Assembly (NCBI GenBank): GCA_019745975.1
Contig: JAIESQ010000001.1
Span: 1-46,526, forward strand
Reading direction: 5' to 3'
Origin: Pirellulales bacterium
GTDB taxonomy: Bacteria; Planctomycetota; Planctomycetia; Pirellulales; JAEUIK01
Length of the DNA stretch: 46,526 bases
This document shows, in pieces, positions 1 to 37,141 of the stretch; position 1 is the stretch's first letter; each line of letters opens with the position of its first letter. The position numbers were made by a program, and so were the translations under genes. Under the pieces are notes generated by a model, which was not told the origin of the DNA, made no database searches, and worked only from the letters and a program-made list of their open reading frames with translations.

Positions 1-3000
1 CGGGTGATTGATTCGCCATCGGCCGGATCGAGCCAGTTCTCGGCGGTGCGGCGATCGAGCGGGTCGTAGTCGAAGGTGCGCACCTGCCCGAGCCGATCGG
101 TCTGGCGGGTGAGATTGCCGGCGGCGTCGTACTGGTAGAGGCGCGAGTTGCCCAACGGATCGGTGTCGACCGACAAGCGATTCAAGCGATCGAAGGCCCA
201 GCGGTTGACGTTGCCCGCCGCGTCGGTGAGCGAGGTCTGGTTGCCGACGGCGTCAAAACCGAAGCGGGTGACCCCCTCGCGGGCGTCCATGATTGCGGTC
301 GCGCGGTTCAAGGCGTCGTAGGTGGTGACGGTGATCGCCCCGATGGGGTCGGTCACTTTGGTCTGGTTGCCGACGGCGTCGTAGCGGAACGACGTGACGA
401 TGTCGTGGTCAGGGTCGTAAGTGCCGCGCGGGGAGATGACCGTCTTGGTGGTTTGCCGGCCCAGGTAGTCGTATCCGTACGTCGTCTCCAGGTTCATCTG
501 GTCCTTGAAGCTCGTGAGCTGGCCGGCCAGATCGTACGAGTACGTGAGCGCCGTGCGATGCGCGGAGGCATAGCTGCCGTTGGTGTACGACTCGGTTACC
601 TCGGGCTGCGTCTCGCGGAGCACGCGCCCGGCGGCGTCGTAGTCGTAATTGGTGTCGATAAACTGGCTGGTGCCCGGCTCGGGCTGGCGGACTTGCACGA
701 GTTGGCTGCGATTGTCGTAGCCGTAGGTGGTGAGTTGCCCGGCGGAGCCGCCGAGGGTGGTGGGGTCGGGATCGCGGCGGCTGGCGCGGCGGCCCAGTCC
801 GTCGTAGCGATAGGCGGTGACGCGCGACAGGGGATCGGTCACCGACGTGACGTTGCCGGAGTCGTCGTAAGCGTAGGCCGTATTCGGGCGCGTGGAGCCG
901 CCGCCTGGCTGGGCGATCGTGGGCTGCGCGACATCGGTCAGCCGGCCGAGCTTGTCGAACGTGTAGTCGGTGACGCGCTGCAAGGGATCGGTGTACGTGA
1001 CCAGGTTGCCGGCCGCGTCGTACTGGTACTGGTACTCGGGCCGGGCGGTGCCGCTGTAGCCGGCCTGGCCCGGCAACAGTGGATTGGCCTCGGTGACTTT
1101 GCGCAACTGATCGAGCGCGTCGTACTCGAAATCGGTGCGGCGCCCCAGGGCGTCGGTCTGGCTCGTCTGCCGCGAGAGCGGATCGTAACCCAGCAAGCTC
1201 ACGCCGCCGGCCGCGTCGATCTGGTGGGTGAGGCGGCCGGCCGTGTCATAGCGATACTGCGTGCTGCGCCCCAGCGGATCGGTCTCGACGAGCAGGTTGT
1301 CCGCAAGATCGTAGGCGTAGACGTACTTGGGCCGCGCGGCGCTGGTAAGCGACGTGTCGCCGACACTAGCCGGATTGGCTTCGACGACCTTGCTGAGATT
1401 GCCGCGGCGGTCGTACAGGTAGTCGGTGCGGCGGCCCAATTCGTCGACCACGCCGGTGCGGCGCCCCAGGTCGTCGTAGGCGTAGTCGACTTTCGGAGCC
1501 GCGCCGGAATAATCGGTCGTCGGGTTGGGGAGCGTGACCCGGGTGAGGTTCGACTGCGTGTCGTAGCCGTAGGTGGTGGCGAGCGCGGCGGTCGGCGCGC
1601 GGCCATCGAGCGGCGTGACGCCCGACGCCGGCTCGGTCAGCGAGACCAGGTTGCCGACCTGGTCGTATTGGTAGCTGGTAAAGATCGGCGAGCTGGCCAA
1701 CTGCCCATCGACAGGCTTGCCCGAGGTGATTTTTTTGACGCGGCCCAGACCGTCGTATTCGTAGAAGGTGTGCGGCGTGATCGTGCCCGAGGGACCAAGA
1801 ACCGTGGGGCCGATGATTTCTTCGAGCTCGCTGGCGAGCGTGTACTTGTACTGGGTGGCGGGGCCGAGGGGGGCGTCGTTGCCGTCGACCGAGTTGCCCG
1901 AGCTCGCGTTGGGATCGTAGCGGCGGATGAGCCGGCCACGGGCATCGTAGCGGGAGTCGGTCTTGGCGCCGCGCGGGTCGGTGGTGCGCAGCAGGTTGCC
2001 GTTTTTGTCGTAGCTATAAGCGATCGTGGGGGCGGAGTTCAGGCCGGCCACCAGCGGCAGGGTCACCAGCACCAATTGGCCCAAGGCGTTGTAGTCGTAC
2101 GTTGTGGTGGCAAAGGGGGTCGTCAAATTGCTGGGCAGGAAGCGCGATTCGGTGATTCGCAGTTCGCCGTCGGACTGCGGGGTGTAGGTGTAGCGGGTGA
2201 CGGCGCCGGCGGCGTCGGTCGTTTCGACGACGCGATTCAAGGAATCGTAAGCGTAATTGATCGTGCCGCCAGCTTGATCGGCCGGCGCGACGATGGTGAA
2301 AGCCATGATGACGCCGGCGTCGAGCCCGCTCACCAGGTTGGCGTCGATCGCCAGGTGGTATTCTCCGGGGGCGTTTTGCGCGGCGGGGAGCGAGATCAAG
2401 TACTGCGTCGTGCTGATCCGCGCGGCGCTGAAGCCGGTGGTGAGCGACGAGCCGTCGGGCTTGGTCAGGCTGACCGCCGACAGATTGAGCGTGGAGGCCA
2501 TCGTCTTGTTGAACGTGACGAGGATGCTGTCGACCGCGCCGATGACCGCCTGCCCTGGCGTGACCGACTCGATTTTCAGAACGGCCGGCTCGCTGTCGAG
2601 TGAATACGGCAGCCTGGCGAGCGTGGCCATCACGTCGGCCTGGCCGCTGGAGACCTGCGTCCAGGTCATGAAGACGCCGCCGCCGGGCCCGCTGACGATG
2701 TCGACGTCGCTCGTCGTCGCTGCGCTGGCGGCAGCTTCGACCGCGACCGGGGCACCGAAGCGGTCGTATCGCCGGGTGTAGATTTGGATTCCGCTCGACT
2801 GATCGCTGTACCAGGCGACGACGAAACCGCCGTCGGGCGTGCCGGCGACGCTGGGGCGTTCGTGCGAAACGCCGGTCGGAATATCGGGGCCCGCGCTAAT
2901 CACAAATTCGCTCGAGGCGGGCGTACCGTCGGCGGCGAAGCGGCGCCCCTTGATCACGGCGTCGCTGCCGGCCGTGGCCTGATCCTGCCAGACGACGACC

Positions 3001-6000
3001 AGCCCGCCATCGCTGGTGGCGGCGTAACTCGAAATGTCGTTGGTCAGATCGACGCGGGTTTCGACCCAGGGAGCCGTGCCGTTGGCCTGGAAGCGGCGCA
3101 GGAAAATGGCTGTTGTCGCGGTTGACGTGGAGCCGAAGCTGCCGTCGCCATCCCAAGCGATGATGAACCCGCCATCCTTGGTGGGGGCGATCGACGGACG
3201 CTGCTGCGCGCCAGGCGAGGCGGGGTTGGCGCGAAACGCATTGCTCACGGCGTTTCCCTCGGCGTCGACGACCTGCCCGTAGACGTCGTCGCCCAGGCTC
3301 GTCACGCCGCGCAGCGCCCAGGTGACGACGTAGCGCGAGTCGGGAAGTTCGTCGGTCGGCAGCAGCCGGGCGATGGCCGGCCCGCCCAGCGGCACGGCGA
3401 TGTTCGACCAGTACGACTTTTCGGCGCTCGCGGCGTTGCCGGAGTGGTCGAAGGTTCGCCAGCGGATTTGCGCGGCGGAGGAGTTGACGTAGTCGTACCA
3501 GGCGACGGCGAAGCCATCGTCGGAGGCGGCGACCATCGGCTTGCCTTGCTCGCCGGACGTGGAGGTGTTGACGAGTGTTTGGCCGCCGACCTTGTTGCCG
3601 CTAGAGTCGAAGCGCTGGAACCAGATGCCGGAGTCGTCGGTGCCGCTGGGGCCGGCCCCTTCCCAAACGATGACATAGCCCGAGCCATCGGCGAAGGCGG
3701 CGACCGAGGAGTTCTGCTGGTCGCCGGCGGTGGTGGTGTTGACGGTTTGCGCCGAGGTGTTGACGGTCGACCGCGTGACTTCGATCTCCAGTTCGCTCGA
3801 CAGGCCGGCGGTGTTGGTCGCGCGCAGGGTGACGGTGGCGCTGCCGGCGCCGATGAATTCGGCGTATTCGAGAATCAGTTGCCGGCCGCCGTCGGCAGCA
3901 AAGCGCAGCGATTTGAAGAAACTGGCGGGACTGTTGACCGCGACGATCTCGTAACGCAGCGCGCCGTCGGCGTCGACCGTATCGACGAAGGCGGCCGACG
4001 CGGGATTGGCGGGATCGAACAGCGTGACCACCGACTGCAAGTCGAGCTCGGTTGCCTCGACCTCGGCCAGCGCTTGCGGCGTGGGAGCGGTGCGCGCGGC
4101 GGCGCTCGGCCGCGTAACCTGCGTCAGCCGGCCCAGTTGGTCGTAGATATAGGAATAGACCGGCGCCGGGGCCCCGCTGGCGGCGGCCGGTAACTTGACC
4201 GTGGCGACCTGGTCCAGATCGGTGTACGTGTACTCGGTTTCGTTGCCCAAGGCGTCGGTCGCTTTGACGAGGCGGCCGAGCACGTCGTAGTCGTAGATGG
4301 TTTGGATGACCGCGCCGCCCGACTCGCGCGGGGTTTCCTTGACGGTGAGCGTGCGATCGTTGTTCGAGTAGTTGTACTCGGTCCAATGGGCCTCGCGCGT
4401 GCCGGCGCCGGGAGCGTCGGGATCGGGATCGGTCTGTTTGGCGAGCCGCCCCAGCGTGTCGTACGCGAAGGTGGTGATCGGGCGGCCGAGATTGTCGCCC
4501 GGATCGGCGTCGGGCTGGGTGATGCTGATGGTGCGGTTTTGGGCGTCGTAGGCGTAGTCGGTCGTGCGCGCCAGTTCGTCGGTCTGCGACGTCAGGCGGC
4601 GACGCGTGTCGTAGCCGAATGAGACCGTCGCCTCGTCGGTCGTGTTGACGGCGTAGGTAATCGACTGCAGCAGGCCGACGCGATCGGCGTCAACCGTTCC
4701 TGCGCCAGCTTCGCTAGAGTCGGCGCGGTAGTAGGTGTATTGCGTGACGTTTTCGAGCGGGTCGGTGATCTTGGTGACCAGCCCGCCGGGCAGGCGCGTG
4801 CCGGGCGTTTGGCCGGTGGGAGCGGCCGTGTATTCGTACCGCGTGAAGAGGTCGTCGCCTGGGTTTTCCAGCGTGTTCGGCGCGCCGACGACTTGCTGCA
4901 TGTAGTTGACGTTGCCGCGGTCGTCGAGGTTGTAGATCGTCTGCCGGCCCAGTTCGTCGGTGAAGCCCGACACCTGGTTCTTGGCGCCGTAGGTCCACGC
5001 TTGCGATTGGCCGTTGGGCAACGAGATGGTTTCGAGATTGAGGCCGCTGTCGTAGTCGTAGATCGTCACCGGCGACGCCAGCGGGCCGGCGCCATCGGGA
5101 TCGGCCTCGATCATCCGCCAGACCAGGCCGTCGGCGTTGCGGTGGTAGACGGTCGTGGCCGCGTCGGCGGTGCCTGGCGAAATGGTGCGCGAGGAAATCT
5201 GCTGGAAGCCGTCGATGGTGAACGTGCTTTCGCGCCACTCGGTGGCGCTGATCTGCTCGCTCTTCGACCCTTGCGGGGCGCCAATCGCGCGCAGCGGGGC
5301 GGGGTTGTCGATGGTTCCCTGCGCATAGTTATTGTTGTCGACGATCGTGGGATCGGCGGCCCCCCAGCGCTGGGCGGCGAACAGTTCCATTGACGAAGCG
5401 CCGGAGTTTGAGCCCGTCCCGCTGCTACGCATGACCGATGTGACCGTGCCGGAGGGCAGATGATACTCGTACGTAGTCTGCTCGTAGGTGGTCTCGGTCG
5501 GCGTCAGCGGGCTGACGATGTCGCGCTTGACGATTTCGACCAGGTCGGTGCCTTCGACATACTCGATGGCGGTGACTGGCGCGGGCAGGCCGGAGCTGGG
5601 ACTGCCGTCGGCGTCCTCGCCGGTGATCGAGAGGAGGTGGCCGTTGGCGTCGACGTCCAGCCAGGTCGAGGTGCCGCCGGAGCCGTCTTCGAGCGCGTTC
5701 TCGATGATCCGCGAGACGTAACCGCCTTCGTACTCGAACTTGGTGCGGCGGCCGTTGGGGTAGAGGATCGCCAGCAGGTTGCCCGTGCCGCCCGAGCCCG
5801 AGTATACGTAGACGGTTTTGTTGTCGTTGCGGTCGACGTACTCGAGCAGGCGGCCGGCGCTGGAATAGGAGTACTTCGTTCCGAACTTGTCGGTGTAATC
5901 GATGCCAACGCTCGTGCTGCTGAGCGTGAGTCCCTCACCGCCGACGCCTGAGTCGTATTCGCCGATCGAATTCTCATAGAAGGCGCGGGCATTCTGACCT

Positions 6001-19707: not shown

Positions 19708-20829
19708 TTACCGCGCCGTGAAACAGACGGATCGCGAGCCGAATCGCAAGCGCGGACTTCGCCCGGCAGCCACGTCGAGCAACGCTGTGGCAAGATTGTC
19801 GTGCGCCAGCTTACGCAACCCAAGATAGGAGGTCGTGAGTCGAGGATTAATCTCGATGACAACATCGTCACCGCCGTCTGGGCGTTCGCCGAGGACCAAA
19901 TCGACGCCCACGTAGCCCCACAGCCCTGGCAAGACCGCCACGGCTTGGCGCGCGAGTCGCTCGGCGCGCGCGGCCAGCGCGGGCTCGATCGGAGTACTTC
20001 CCCCCAGATAGGCGAACCGACCATCGCTGCTCAAATGCTGTTGGCAAGGCGGTAGCGCGTAAGTAGCAGCAGTTTCAAATCCTGGTGTGGGTGCCACTGC
20101 TGGCTTGCCCAGCAGTGCAGGGCTCGATACGGCACTGCTAGACGAGCTAGCAGTGGCACACAGGGCTGCAGCATCGTCGGTTTTGAAACTGCTACTCGTG
20201 TTTGCTCCGACCAGCAGGGCCACGCTCGCAGCCAGGCCGGGGCAATAGCGTTCGAGTCGCTGCGGAGTGGTCCGGCGCGGCCAGGTGATCGCGTCGGATC
20301 GCGAATGCAGCAGGATGACATCTTGCGACCCAGCCCCGTCGCACGGCTTGAGGACCGCGGGAAAGGGGAAACCCACAGGCGGTAATTCGTCGGCGCCCAA
20401 CGAGACACCCTCGGGCACGGGCACGCCTGCCGCCAGCAGCGCTTCGGCCGTGGCATGCTTGTCCGACGCCACGCGGATGGCCTCGAGCGATGAACCGAGC
20501 CAGCGGCCCTGCGCTGCGTCGACCGCGCGGTGGCAGTTTGTCAATGCGCCACCGATTTCAGGGGCGATCGCCAGCGTCCAATCGGCATCGTGGGCCAGCT
20601 TATGGAAAACAGCCGTTCTGGTGGCCGCGTCGCCAGTCCTCACGACCCGAGCCGGAAACGCGGTTAGCGAATCGACGCGATCCGCAAGCACCGTCACGAC
20701 GTCGTGGCCCGCCGCGGCGAAATCCTCGACAATCGCGACCAGCATCGCGCGGCCTTCGGCCAACAAGCTTGCAGGGGCCTGCGGACCGAAGCCTCCGGCC
20801 ATCAGATGCTCGTAAACAAACAGCCGCAT
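19708..20829 (-). CDS. ATP-grasp ligase (MfnD-like) carrying an in-frame palindromic-element insert
   Basis: The 373-residue protein opens MRLFVYEHLMAGGFG and has the ATP-grasp core: FPAVLKPCDGAGSQDV (157-171, ATP-binding lysine), PPCQQHLSSDGRFAYLGG (260-277) and VIEINPRLTTSYLGL (324-338, metal ligands). It resembles the ATP-grasp family of tyramine-glutamate ligase (MfnD), whose homologues occur with tetrahydromethanopterin C1 genes in planctomycetes and methylotrophs. The product would be an amide or peptide bond, substrate unknown. Residues 212-256 (Ser/Ala-rich) are encoded by a 135-bp palindromic element at 20062-20196. Removing it leaves 328 residues and joins LLVGAN to TYALPPCQQ, giving a natural strand-loop-strand. 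The reading frame is kept, so the gene is probably functional. The Shine-Dalgarno is weak. Confidence 0.82.
   Translation of the reverse strand: MRLFVYEHLMAGGFGPQAPASLLAEGRAMLVAIVEDFAAAGHDVVTVLADRVDSLTAFPARVVRTGDAATRTAVFHKLAHDADWTLAIAPEIGGALTNCHRAVDAAQGRWLGSSLEAIRVASDKHATAEALLAAGVPVPEGVSLGADELPPVGFPFPAVLKPCDGAGSQDVILLHSRSDAITWPRRTTPQRLERYCPGLAASVALLVGANTSSSFKTDDAAALCATASSSSSAVSSPALLGKPAVAPTPGFETAATYALPPCQQHLSSDGRFAYLGGSTPIEPALAARAERLARQAVAVLPGLWGYVGVDLVLGERPDGGDDVVIEINPRLTTSYLGLRKLAHDNLATALLDVAAGRSPRLRFGSRSVCFTAR
20062..20196. repeat. REP/BIME-like palindromic element inside the ATP-grasp gene
   Basis: Terminal inverted repeats AGTAGCAG(CAG)TTTCAAA (20062-20079) and TTTTGAAACTGCTACT (20181-20196) bound the unit. 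Inside are two hairpins of the same design: CACTGCTGG/CCAGCAGTG (20095-20103, 20109-20117) and CACTGCTAG/CTAGCAGTG (20133-20141, 20147-20155), each with a 9-bp stem and 5-nt loop. The length of 135 bp is a multiple of three. The GTGCCACTGCT core recurs at 36937-37030. No clear target duplication is visible. Confidence 0.85.
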
Positions 20830-21338: not shown

Positions 21339-21369
21339 GTTAGCCGCGGAGCTTGCTCCGCGCGCTAGC
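21339..21369. repeat. Single arm of the GTTAGCCGCGG...GCGCGCTAGC repeat family
   Basis: This 31-nt unit starts GTTAGCCGCGGAGC and ends TCCGCGCGCTAGC, and can itself fold (CGCGGAG/CTCCGCG). Two near-identical copies in opposite orientation make up the element at 36437-36549. It sits between sufT and the Rieske gene. Confidence 0.8.
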
Positions 21370-36436: not shown

Positions 36437-36549
36437 GTTAGCCGCGGGATTTATCCCGCGCGCTAGCTTGTGCCGCCTCGCTAGTTGATTCGCCGCCTTA
36501 CGAACCAGTACCGATCACGCTAGCGCGCGGAGCAAGTTCCGCGGCTAAC
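36437..36549. repeat. Inverted pair of the GTTAGCCGCGG...CGCGCTAGC repeat
   Basis: Two 31-nt arms (36437-36467 and 36519-36549) lie in opposite orientation about 50 nt apart and differ at only a few bases in the middle. A third copy, single, is at 21339-21369. Together with the preceding element it fills the gap between glyS and the CDGSH gene. Confidence 0.82.
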
Positions 36550-36793: not shown

Positions 36794-37141
36794 ACGTGTG
36801 GTTCCCAAGTTAGTAGAAGTGTGGCAACTGCGCCGGGGGGCTGTCTAGCTCCTAGGCATTCAACGCAAGTGCGCCACTGCTTGGTAGTCGGCTGAAAGGG
36901 AATTGCTATATCGATGCAGGTCGGTGCCGACGAACAAGCAGTGCTGGCCACTGGCAGAAACTCAGCACTGCTTGCCGGTGTATGGATCACGCGAGCTTCA
37001 CCGTCGATCGACCGGCAAGCAGTGGCACACCAGCAATGGCTTGTCCGCCTCTTGCCGACTGCCGCACATACTTTACGCTATTTCCTGCGAATCACCGACC
37101 AACAACTCTCCCGACGCATCATCATACAAGGACGTTACCCC
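36794..37141. other. Divergent intergenic region with palindromic repeats (348 bp)
   Basis: The region lies between the CDGSH gene (minus) and the methyltransferase (plus). Its left part has two partial GTGxGCCACTGC-like cores (about 36817-36875), its centre a full palindromic unit (36937-37024), and its right end AAGGA 9 nt before the methyltransferase ATG. A frame open from 36914 merges with the methyltransferase but translates repeat DNA and is not believed. No clear promoter could be picked. Confidence 0.55.
36937..37024. repeat. REP-like palindrome with CACTGCTTGCCGG arms
   Basis: Fourteen-base arms CACTGCTTGCCGGT (36966-36979) and ACCGGCAAGCAGTG (37011-37024) surround a 31-nt loop. A competing hairpin forms from AGCAGTGCTG (36937-36946) and CAGCACTGCT (36963-36972). 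The CACTGCT core and flanking GTGTGCCACTGC match the element inside the ATP-grasp gene at 20062-20196. Confidence 0.75.

Follow-up and report, generated by a model that had tools for sequence, protein, structure and literature searches.

A probable IS5-type MITE with a REP doublet, lying in frame within genes of a Pirellulales bacterium

Bertels and Rainey are said to have described the REPIN in 2011 as two inverted REPs with a spacer, together with the RAYT. Among the elements that are found within reading frames, the RPE is a palindromic repeat of approximately 150 bp which, according to PMC10969869 and PMC3733652, lies in frame in numerous unrelated genes and is apparently tolerated. It is also regarded as conceivable in PMC10969869 that MITEs change proteins in other prokaryotes. 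In-frame REPs have been described in R. conorii, O. terrae, Thauera and others, where the inserts may occupy flexible loops (PMC3733652). The QMITE2 of Coxiella is a MITE of 150–190 bp with an internal GTAG REP and direct repeats of 7–11 nt, according to PMC5896051. Most of its copies are in 3′ UTRs or between genes, but a few interrupt an ORF in its middle part and keep it in frame, two hypothetical proteins being named.

The present analysis concerns a segment in the window, a stretch of 46,526 nucleotides which is contig C152 of the draft genome of a Pirellulales bacterium (G000; 6.98 Mb in 204 contigs). Judged from its sequence, the segment is a MITE of IS5 type with a REP doublet as cargo, the centre being different in different genomes. 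Like the RPE of Rickettsia it has in-frame copies in unrelated genes (13 in 12 ORFs), but it occurs in another phylum, has IS4/5-type ends and a REP doublet as its centre, and is found together with RAYT-like genes, features that set it apart from the RPE. The original prediction had drawn the comparison with the RPE and knew of no case in this lineage. The resemblance in behaviour (in frame, in other genes) stands, but REPs within coding sequences had already been reported in the same superphylum, from a verrucomicrobium (PMC3733652). The GTAG/CGTC REPs and REP dimers of that report likewise lie inside ORFs of several species, including those of the verrucomicrobium O. terrae, with two inserts in some ORFs, as in an ORF of contig C193 here. 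However, the translated unit here would be a whole MITE, and the foot of its REP reads GGGTGCC, with no conserved GTAG or CGTC tag recognised by eye. The REPIN/RAYT systems share with it the two inverted REPs, the spacer and the placing of the same REP around RAYT-like genes, but the unit here is conserved past the REPs and has IS-type ends. From the QMITE2 of PMC5896051 the present element differs in its 13 in-frame copies, whose 12 host ORFs include several that belong to known families, and in that its arms pair with various centres.

Among the papers listed for planctomycete repeats, REP/RAYT and MITEs, no title or abstract opening describes this element, and an IS5-type MITE with REP cargo read in frame is found in none of these titles and abstract openings. 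Within this scope, the element, its modular make-up, its phase rule and its one-sided use of frames are new; in-frame REPs and MITEs as such are already known from PMC3733652, PMC5896051 and PMC10969869.

The insert in the ATP-grasp gene

The product of the host gene matches PF02655 ATP-grasp (E 2e-23) and preATP-grasp_3, and resembles the tyramine-glutamate ligase MfnD, far under the cut-off of that model. The claim that a 135-bp palindromic unit lies within this coding sequence is upheld by two inverted arms of 31 nt (20088–20118 and 20132–20162), which are 84% complementary, and by the DNA fold of the unit. Its energy is −40.8 kcal/mol, whereas 200 shuffled sequences average −24.1 ± 2.6, none of them folding as well (z −6.5). 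The parts of the element and their positions are given in Table 1.

Table 1. Features of the insert, its host gene and a diverged REP pair in the window
Feature	Position	Strand	Basis or remark
ATP-grasp protein gene, host of the insert	19708..20829	-	ORF and Pfam; 373 aa
Whole repeat, CTAG to CTAG by consensus, 136 bp; GTAG..CTCG in this copy	20063..20198	+	Alignment of 40 copies
Putative mobile unit, 130 bp	20066..20195	+	Adds 132 bp (44 codons) net, given duplication of the 2-bp TA
Left TA flank, presumed target duplication	20064..20065	.	Left TA in 48/80 copies
Right flank dinucleotide, TC in this copy	20196..20197	.	Right TA in 43/80 copies
Left terminal arm, consensus GAAGCAGTTTCAAAACC	20066..20082	+	Common to IS4/5-type elements of other genomes
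Right terminal arm	20179..20195	-	Found in arm search with 1 mismatch
REP hairpin 1, consensus GGGTGCCACTGCTGGCTTGCCCAGCAGTGC	20089..20118	+	Inverted-arm search, copy alignment
REP hairpin 2, inverted	20132..20161	-	Inverted-arm search, copy alignment
Diverged REP pair of another subtype (CACTGCTTGCCGG), outside this element family	36937..37030	.	Sequence comparison

Orthologues of the host protein were searched for in 77 genomes including its own, 63 of which gave a match, and the best 29 loci of the 62 matching relatives were aligned. The segment is missing in all 29. The window protein has 60 residues between fixed columns of the alignment, compared with 16 in 28 of the 29 orthologues and 17 in the remaining one; the net gain relative to the 28 is 44 codons, or 132 bp. 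The insert had been thought to add exactly 45 codons, and it is indeed in frame, but the alignment sets the count at 44. This gain is compatible with a duplication of TA or of CTAG alike. An old native loop of the ATP-grasp protein, palindromic by chance, might be argued for from the genomes searched, which include no second species of this genus. However, the 44 residues are absent from 29/29 aligned relatives, the alignment brings together 40 places with this DNA and most of the 89 classified copies lie outside a single coding frame. The native-loop reading is already refuted by the repeat family and has next to no probability left.

In an AlphaFold2 model built from the window protein and six relatives (7 sequences; mean pLDDT 80.5, pTM 0.82), residues 212–252 are the sole stretch of at least three residues with a pLDDT below 50, and sit between strands 199–207 and 256–266. 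As modelled, the insert is probably a Ser/Ala-rich disordered loop of 44 residues at the turn of a β-hairpin.

Terminal arms and REP centre of the repeat family

The family membership that had been proposed for the unit is confirmed by the copies in its own genome. A search with the 135-bp unit scored at least 40 copies (280 candidates); besides the window copy, the best 40 of the 280 candidates comprise 39 copies at 83–92% identity, one of them aligned across 95 bp only. The 19-nt REP core, with up to 2 mismatches, has 266 occurrences against 0 for its reversed control, and the 17-nt terminal arm has 197 against 1. The own-genome stretches that were analysed contain at least 89 full, 19 partial and 38 short copies in 510 kb, and at least 101 near-full-length copies in 564 kb; they were picked because each has a core, an arm or a Y1_Tnp place, and are a sample, not a census. 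The copies diverge by 10–12% on average from the consensus over 130 bp. The end pattern GTAGCAGTTTYAAA, copied from the window copy, was found in only 4 places in the search, as the window copy has an atypical end.

Within the window, a 136-bp profile found no partial or short match besides the full copy. The last feature of Table 1, originally adduced as a further occurrence of the core, turned out not to be another copy of the unit, with which it has a core of 9–10 nt in common. A second palindromic repeat, GTTAGCCGCGG..CCGCGCGCTAGC, is located at 21339–21369, 36437–36470 and 36516–36549, with copies up to 97% complementary, and is perhaps a second REP-like family. Numerous repeats of ~30–60 nt occupy positions 79–5880; we take these to be reminiscent of RHS/YD-repeat genes.

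The outer arms were followed through 296 genomes of the order. With at most one mismatch they occur in 40 of these, the own genome included, and the reversed control in 13; since the control also matches by chance, lone one-mismatch arms mean little. The arm-rich genomes are G037 (15), G045 (8) and G191 (5). In G157 and G260 the arms bound elements of 918–920 bp. The ORFs of these elements occupy two frames and have matches to PF13340, a putative transposase of the IS4/5 family, and to PF01609, and similar ORFs lie inside single arms in G045 and G098. In G037 and G021 (L261, L262, L263, L220, L221) the arms enclose another palindrome pair, of the GGGGACAGTCCCC type; measured between the TA flanks, these elements span 104–121 bp, a length that is not in every case a multiple of three. 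No palindrome pair is enclosed by the arms in G016, G169 and G185. The terminal inverted repeats are thus held in common with the IS4/5-type elements of G157 and G260, as would be expected of an IS5-type MITE. It is because the arms elsewhere bound such elements, another palindrome pair or none that the unit is read as an IS5-type MITE with a REP doublet. The earlier label of a REP/BIME element is incomplete: a plain REP/BIME it is not, as the ends are IS4/5-type inverted repeats of a MITE.

An autonomous IS with these arms was not found in the own draft, which in its 204 contigs may lack a copy; the single PF13340 place has other ends. This place, L272 (G000:C203:75673-75891), is surrounded by an inverted repeat around AAGAACAAGTCTTC, which marks a different IS element. 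None of the 162 arms in the 564 kb of pre-selected stretches is a solo arm forming the end of an autonomous IS. An IS630/Tc1 origin was also considered for the TA/CTAG ends. Two PF13358 places have nearby arms only with 4–5 mismatches, the one locus examined showed no inverted repeat recognisable as the arm, and this candidate was dropped after the IS4/5-type elements were found.

The inner 73 bp of the element consist of the two inverted REPs. With two places scored in each genome, this doublet has matches in 92 of the 296 genomes of the order, the present one among them, most of the strong matches being without arms. The own genome holds 15 Y1_Tnp places, 14 of them above the Pfam cut-off. 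Three of the 15 have GGGTGCCACTGCTGGCTTGTCC or TTGCC REPs on either side, placed as inverted copies, several other loci being cut by contig ends, and these three genes carry MPEHVHL. This is presumably the HUH-type motif. In two RAYT-like genes (L088 1249-1935 and L092 1231-1887) the open frames cross the flanking REP and would code for GATAGLSSSA near the N-terminus. In a relative, too, a REP doublet is open in a frame whose sequence is coding-like to its left and right (G093 L200; 1 of 11 loci checked in relatives, with the codon table of the present genome).

Two inverted REPs and a RAYT-like gene flanked by the same REP are what a REPIN with its cognate RAYT would have, and the whole 136-bp unit could then be a long REPIN/BIME moved by the RAYT, its arms being extended REP. 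The doublet alone is widespread, and all 162 arms in the 564 kb of own stretches lie within 120 bp of a REP core, which makes the two modules inseparable within this genome. However, the mobile unit does not end at the REPs: conservation reaches 23 and 34 bp beyond them, to the IS-type ends, and elsewhere the arms are the ends of IS4/5-type elements or of mini-elements that contain either a different palindrome pair or no pair at all. Movement of the whole unit by a RAYT is considered improbable on these grounds.

Copies within genes, reading frames and encoded peptides

Flanks of the copies were scored by codon usage, for which 250 long ORFs from the same stretches served as the training set of the model. 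Two of the 89 full copies lie at edges; among the 87 classified, both flanks are coding on one strand in one frame in 11 and in different frames in 6, the flanks are coding on opposite strands in 10, one flank is coding in 42 and neither in 18. In the larger set (564 kb), the flanks of 15 copies score above 10 on the left and on the right in a single codon frame, and 13 of these copies are free of stops through the element, the exceptions being copies on C138 and C97.

These 13 are spread over 12 coding-like ORFs; other copies do lie inside genes, a point that the original prediction had put forward for checking. Besides the ATP-grasp gene of the window, recognised by codon flanks above 10, they comprise mnmE (L123), for which Pfam cut-offs were passed and two NCBIfam mnmE models matched below cut-off, and genes with family matches to purQ (L119), TIGR03123 (L030), TIGR00275 (L031), an MFS transporter (L032), a PQQ propeller (L019), two TPR proteins (L037, L139) and a DUF6454 protein (L116). 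One further ORF (L013) is without a family, and so is another, on C193, which holds two in-frame copies, as L015 and L210 overlap in one frame of 1984 codons. A weaker set of 16 further rows, with the weaker flank scoring 5–10, has 7 with stops and 9 stop-free, the latter including three in frame −0, one in +2 (the opposite strand of a counted copy) and one in −1. A Y-family-polymerase-like ORF (L146, PF00817) belongs to this weaker set, outside the count of 13. Two of the insert-bearing genes show methanofuran or C1-transfer likeness, the ATP-grasp gene (MfnD) and the TIGR03123 gene at L030:1587-2756 (MfnF), with both model matches under cut-off.

The loop at the insert is of 75 residues in mnmE against 19–88 in 19 relatives, one truncated mnmE sequence giving 0, and of 82 residues in purQ against 26–63 in 19 relatives. 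As the loops of the relatives vary in length, the exact gain is not readable at these two genes. Three of the mnmE relatives (L166, L167, L176) have long extra loops at the same site, with 46, 88 and 43 residues between anchors, which are perhaps other inserts.

The target duplication of IS5-type elements is short: TA, or YTAR in some groups. Among 80 copies (9/89 were dropped, the arm not being recognised), TA stands on the left and on the right in the proportions of Table 1 and on both sides in 32. The flank match at k=2 is 0.644 compared with 0.589 in shuffles, a value reached by 3/500, and no clear excess of a longer duplication (k = 3–9) is seen in these 80 copies. A duplication of TA at insertion is weakly supported by these figures; the right TA of the window copy reads TC. 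The six junction bases are more diverged in the in-gene copies (0.45) than in the other copies (0.27; p 0.002, 13 and 59 copies of exact length, other full copies left out), which makes the targets of the in-gene copies uncertain.

Stops in the consensus are confined to frames +1 and −1, whereas +0, +2, −0 and −2 can be read through. As the first base of the element after the TA is G, a TAG results at the junction, and the closed frames are those with this TAG in frame. Thus, one of the three codon phases is a stop. All four remaining frames are open in 71/20000 palindrome-preserving simulations and in 18/20000 shuffles. As 132 bp is divisible by three, the reading frame is kept, and the net gain together with the four stop-free frames explains the tolerance of genes for the element.

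We infer that an IS5-type transposase would act in trans on the non-autonomous MITE, with insertion into the ATP-grasp gene at a TA, preferably within CTAG, and duplication of the TA (130 + 2 = 132 bp). Where the TAG falls in the in-frame phase, the gene would be truncated and the insertion lost; the two other phases, by the consensus, are stop-free in both orientations. The protein would then be made with an extra loop of 44 residues and keep its function, and the peptide itself may be under selection. A MITE with IS4/5-type ends and a REP doublet, inserted by a transposase in trans, translated as a loop and leaving function intact is, taken as a whole, the account that we hold to be likely, with good confidence.

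An alternative fate for such genes is that the insertions inactivated them, so that they are young pseudogenes with frames yet to decay. A long palindrome in the mRNA could hinder translation, and stops occur in the two copies noted above despite their coding-like flanks. However, copies with this degree of divergence from the consensus cannot be recent arrivals, and still 13 of them have kept an open frame, and codon use is coding-like on both sides of all 13, mnmE and purQ among them. Inactivation is accordingly very unlikely as a general explanation, and translation of the insert in functional genes is preferred.

Among the 13 strong in-gene copies, frame −2 is used in 11 and +0 in 2 (two of the 13 being in one ORF). 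A rough, hand-computed probability of 13/13 in −2 or +0 is 6e-4; it is post hoc and assumes use proportional to openness in 67 copies of 136 bp (−2 in 60, +0 in 58, −0 in 55 and +2 in 37). The consensus peptides of −2 and +0 have no Cys or Trp and net charges of +1 and −2, against 5 and 3 Cys/Trp and charges of +8 and +6 for +2 and −0; the window copy itself has one Cys in frame −2. Frame use and peptide make-up suggest selection on the encoded peptide, the tests being post hoc.

A more far-reaching idea is that the element has been shaped by selection so that its insertions in genes survive, being translated as its survival strategy. This would bundle a length divisible by three, stops only in the phase already forbidden by the TAG, a neutral Ser/Ala/Pro-rich linker in one orientation, and a MITE frame with different REP cargos per genus. 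A general design is spoken against by the mini-elements that these arms bound in other genomes: their net lengths are 79, 102, 103 or 119 bp, and most of these values are no multiple of three. Such shaping is entertained only tentatively and is on the whole doubtful.

Implications

The element would be an RPE-like, protein-invading element in the Pirellulales, reaching genes as central as mnmE and purQ. It joins classes that are usually kept apart, namely the IS4/5-type IS, the MITE and the REP doublet. It also offers a simple and testable rule for the survival of its targets, a net gain of 132 bp with the TAG phase excluded. If the frame bias, by which all 13 strong cases fall into two of the four readings that are open, holds genome-wide, the family would amount to a natural experiment on which peptides are tolerated within proteins.
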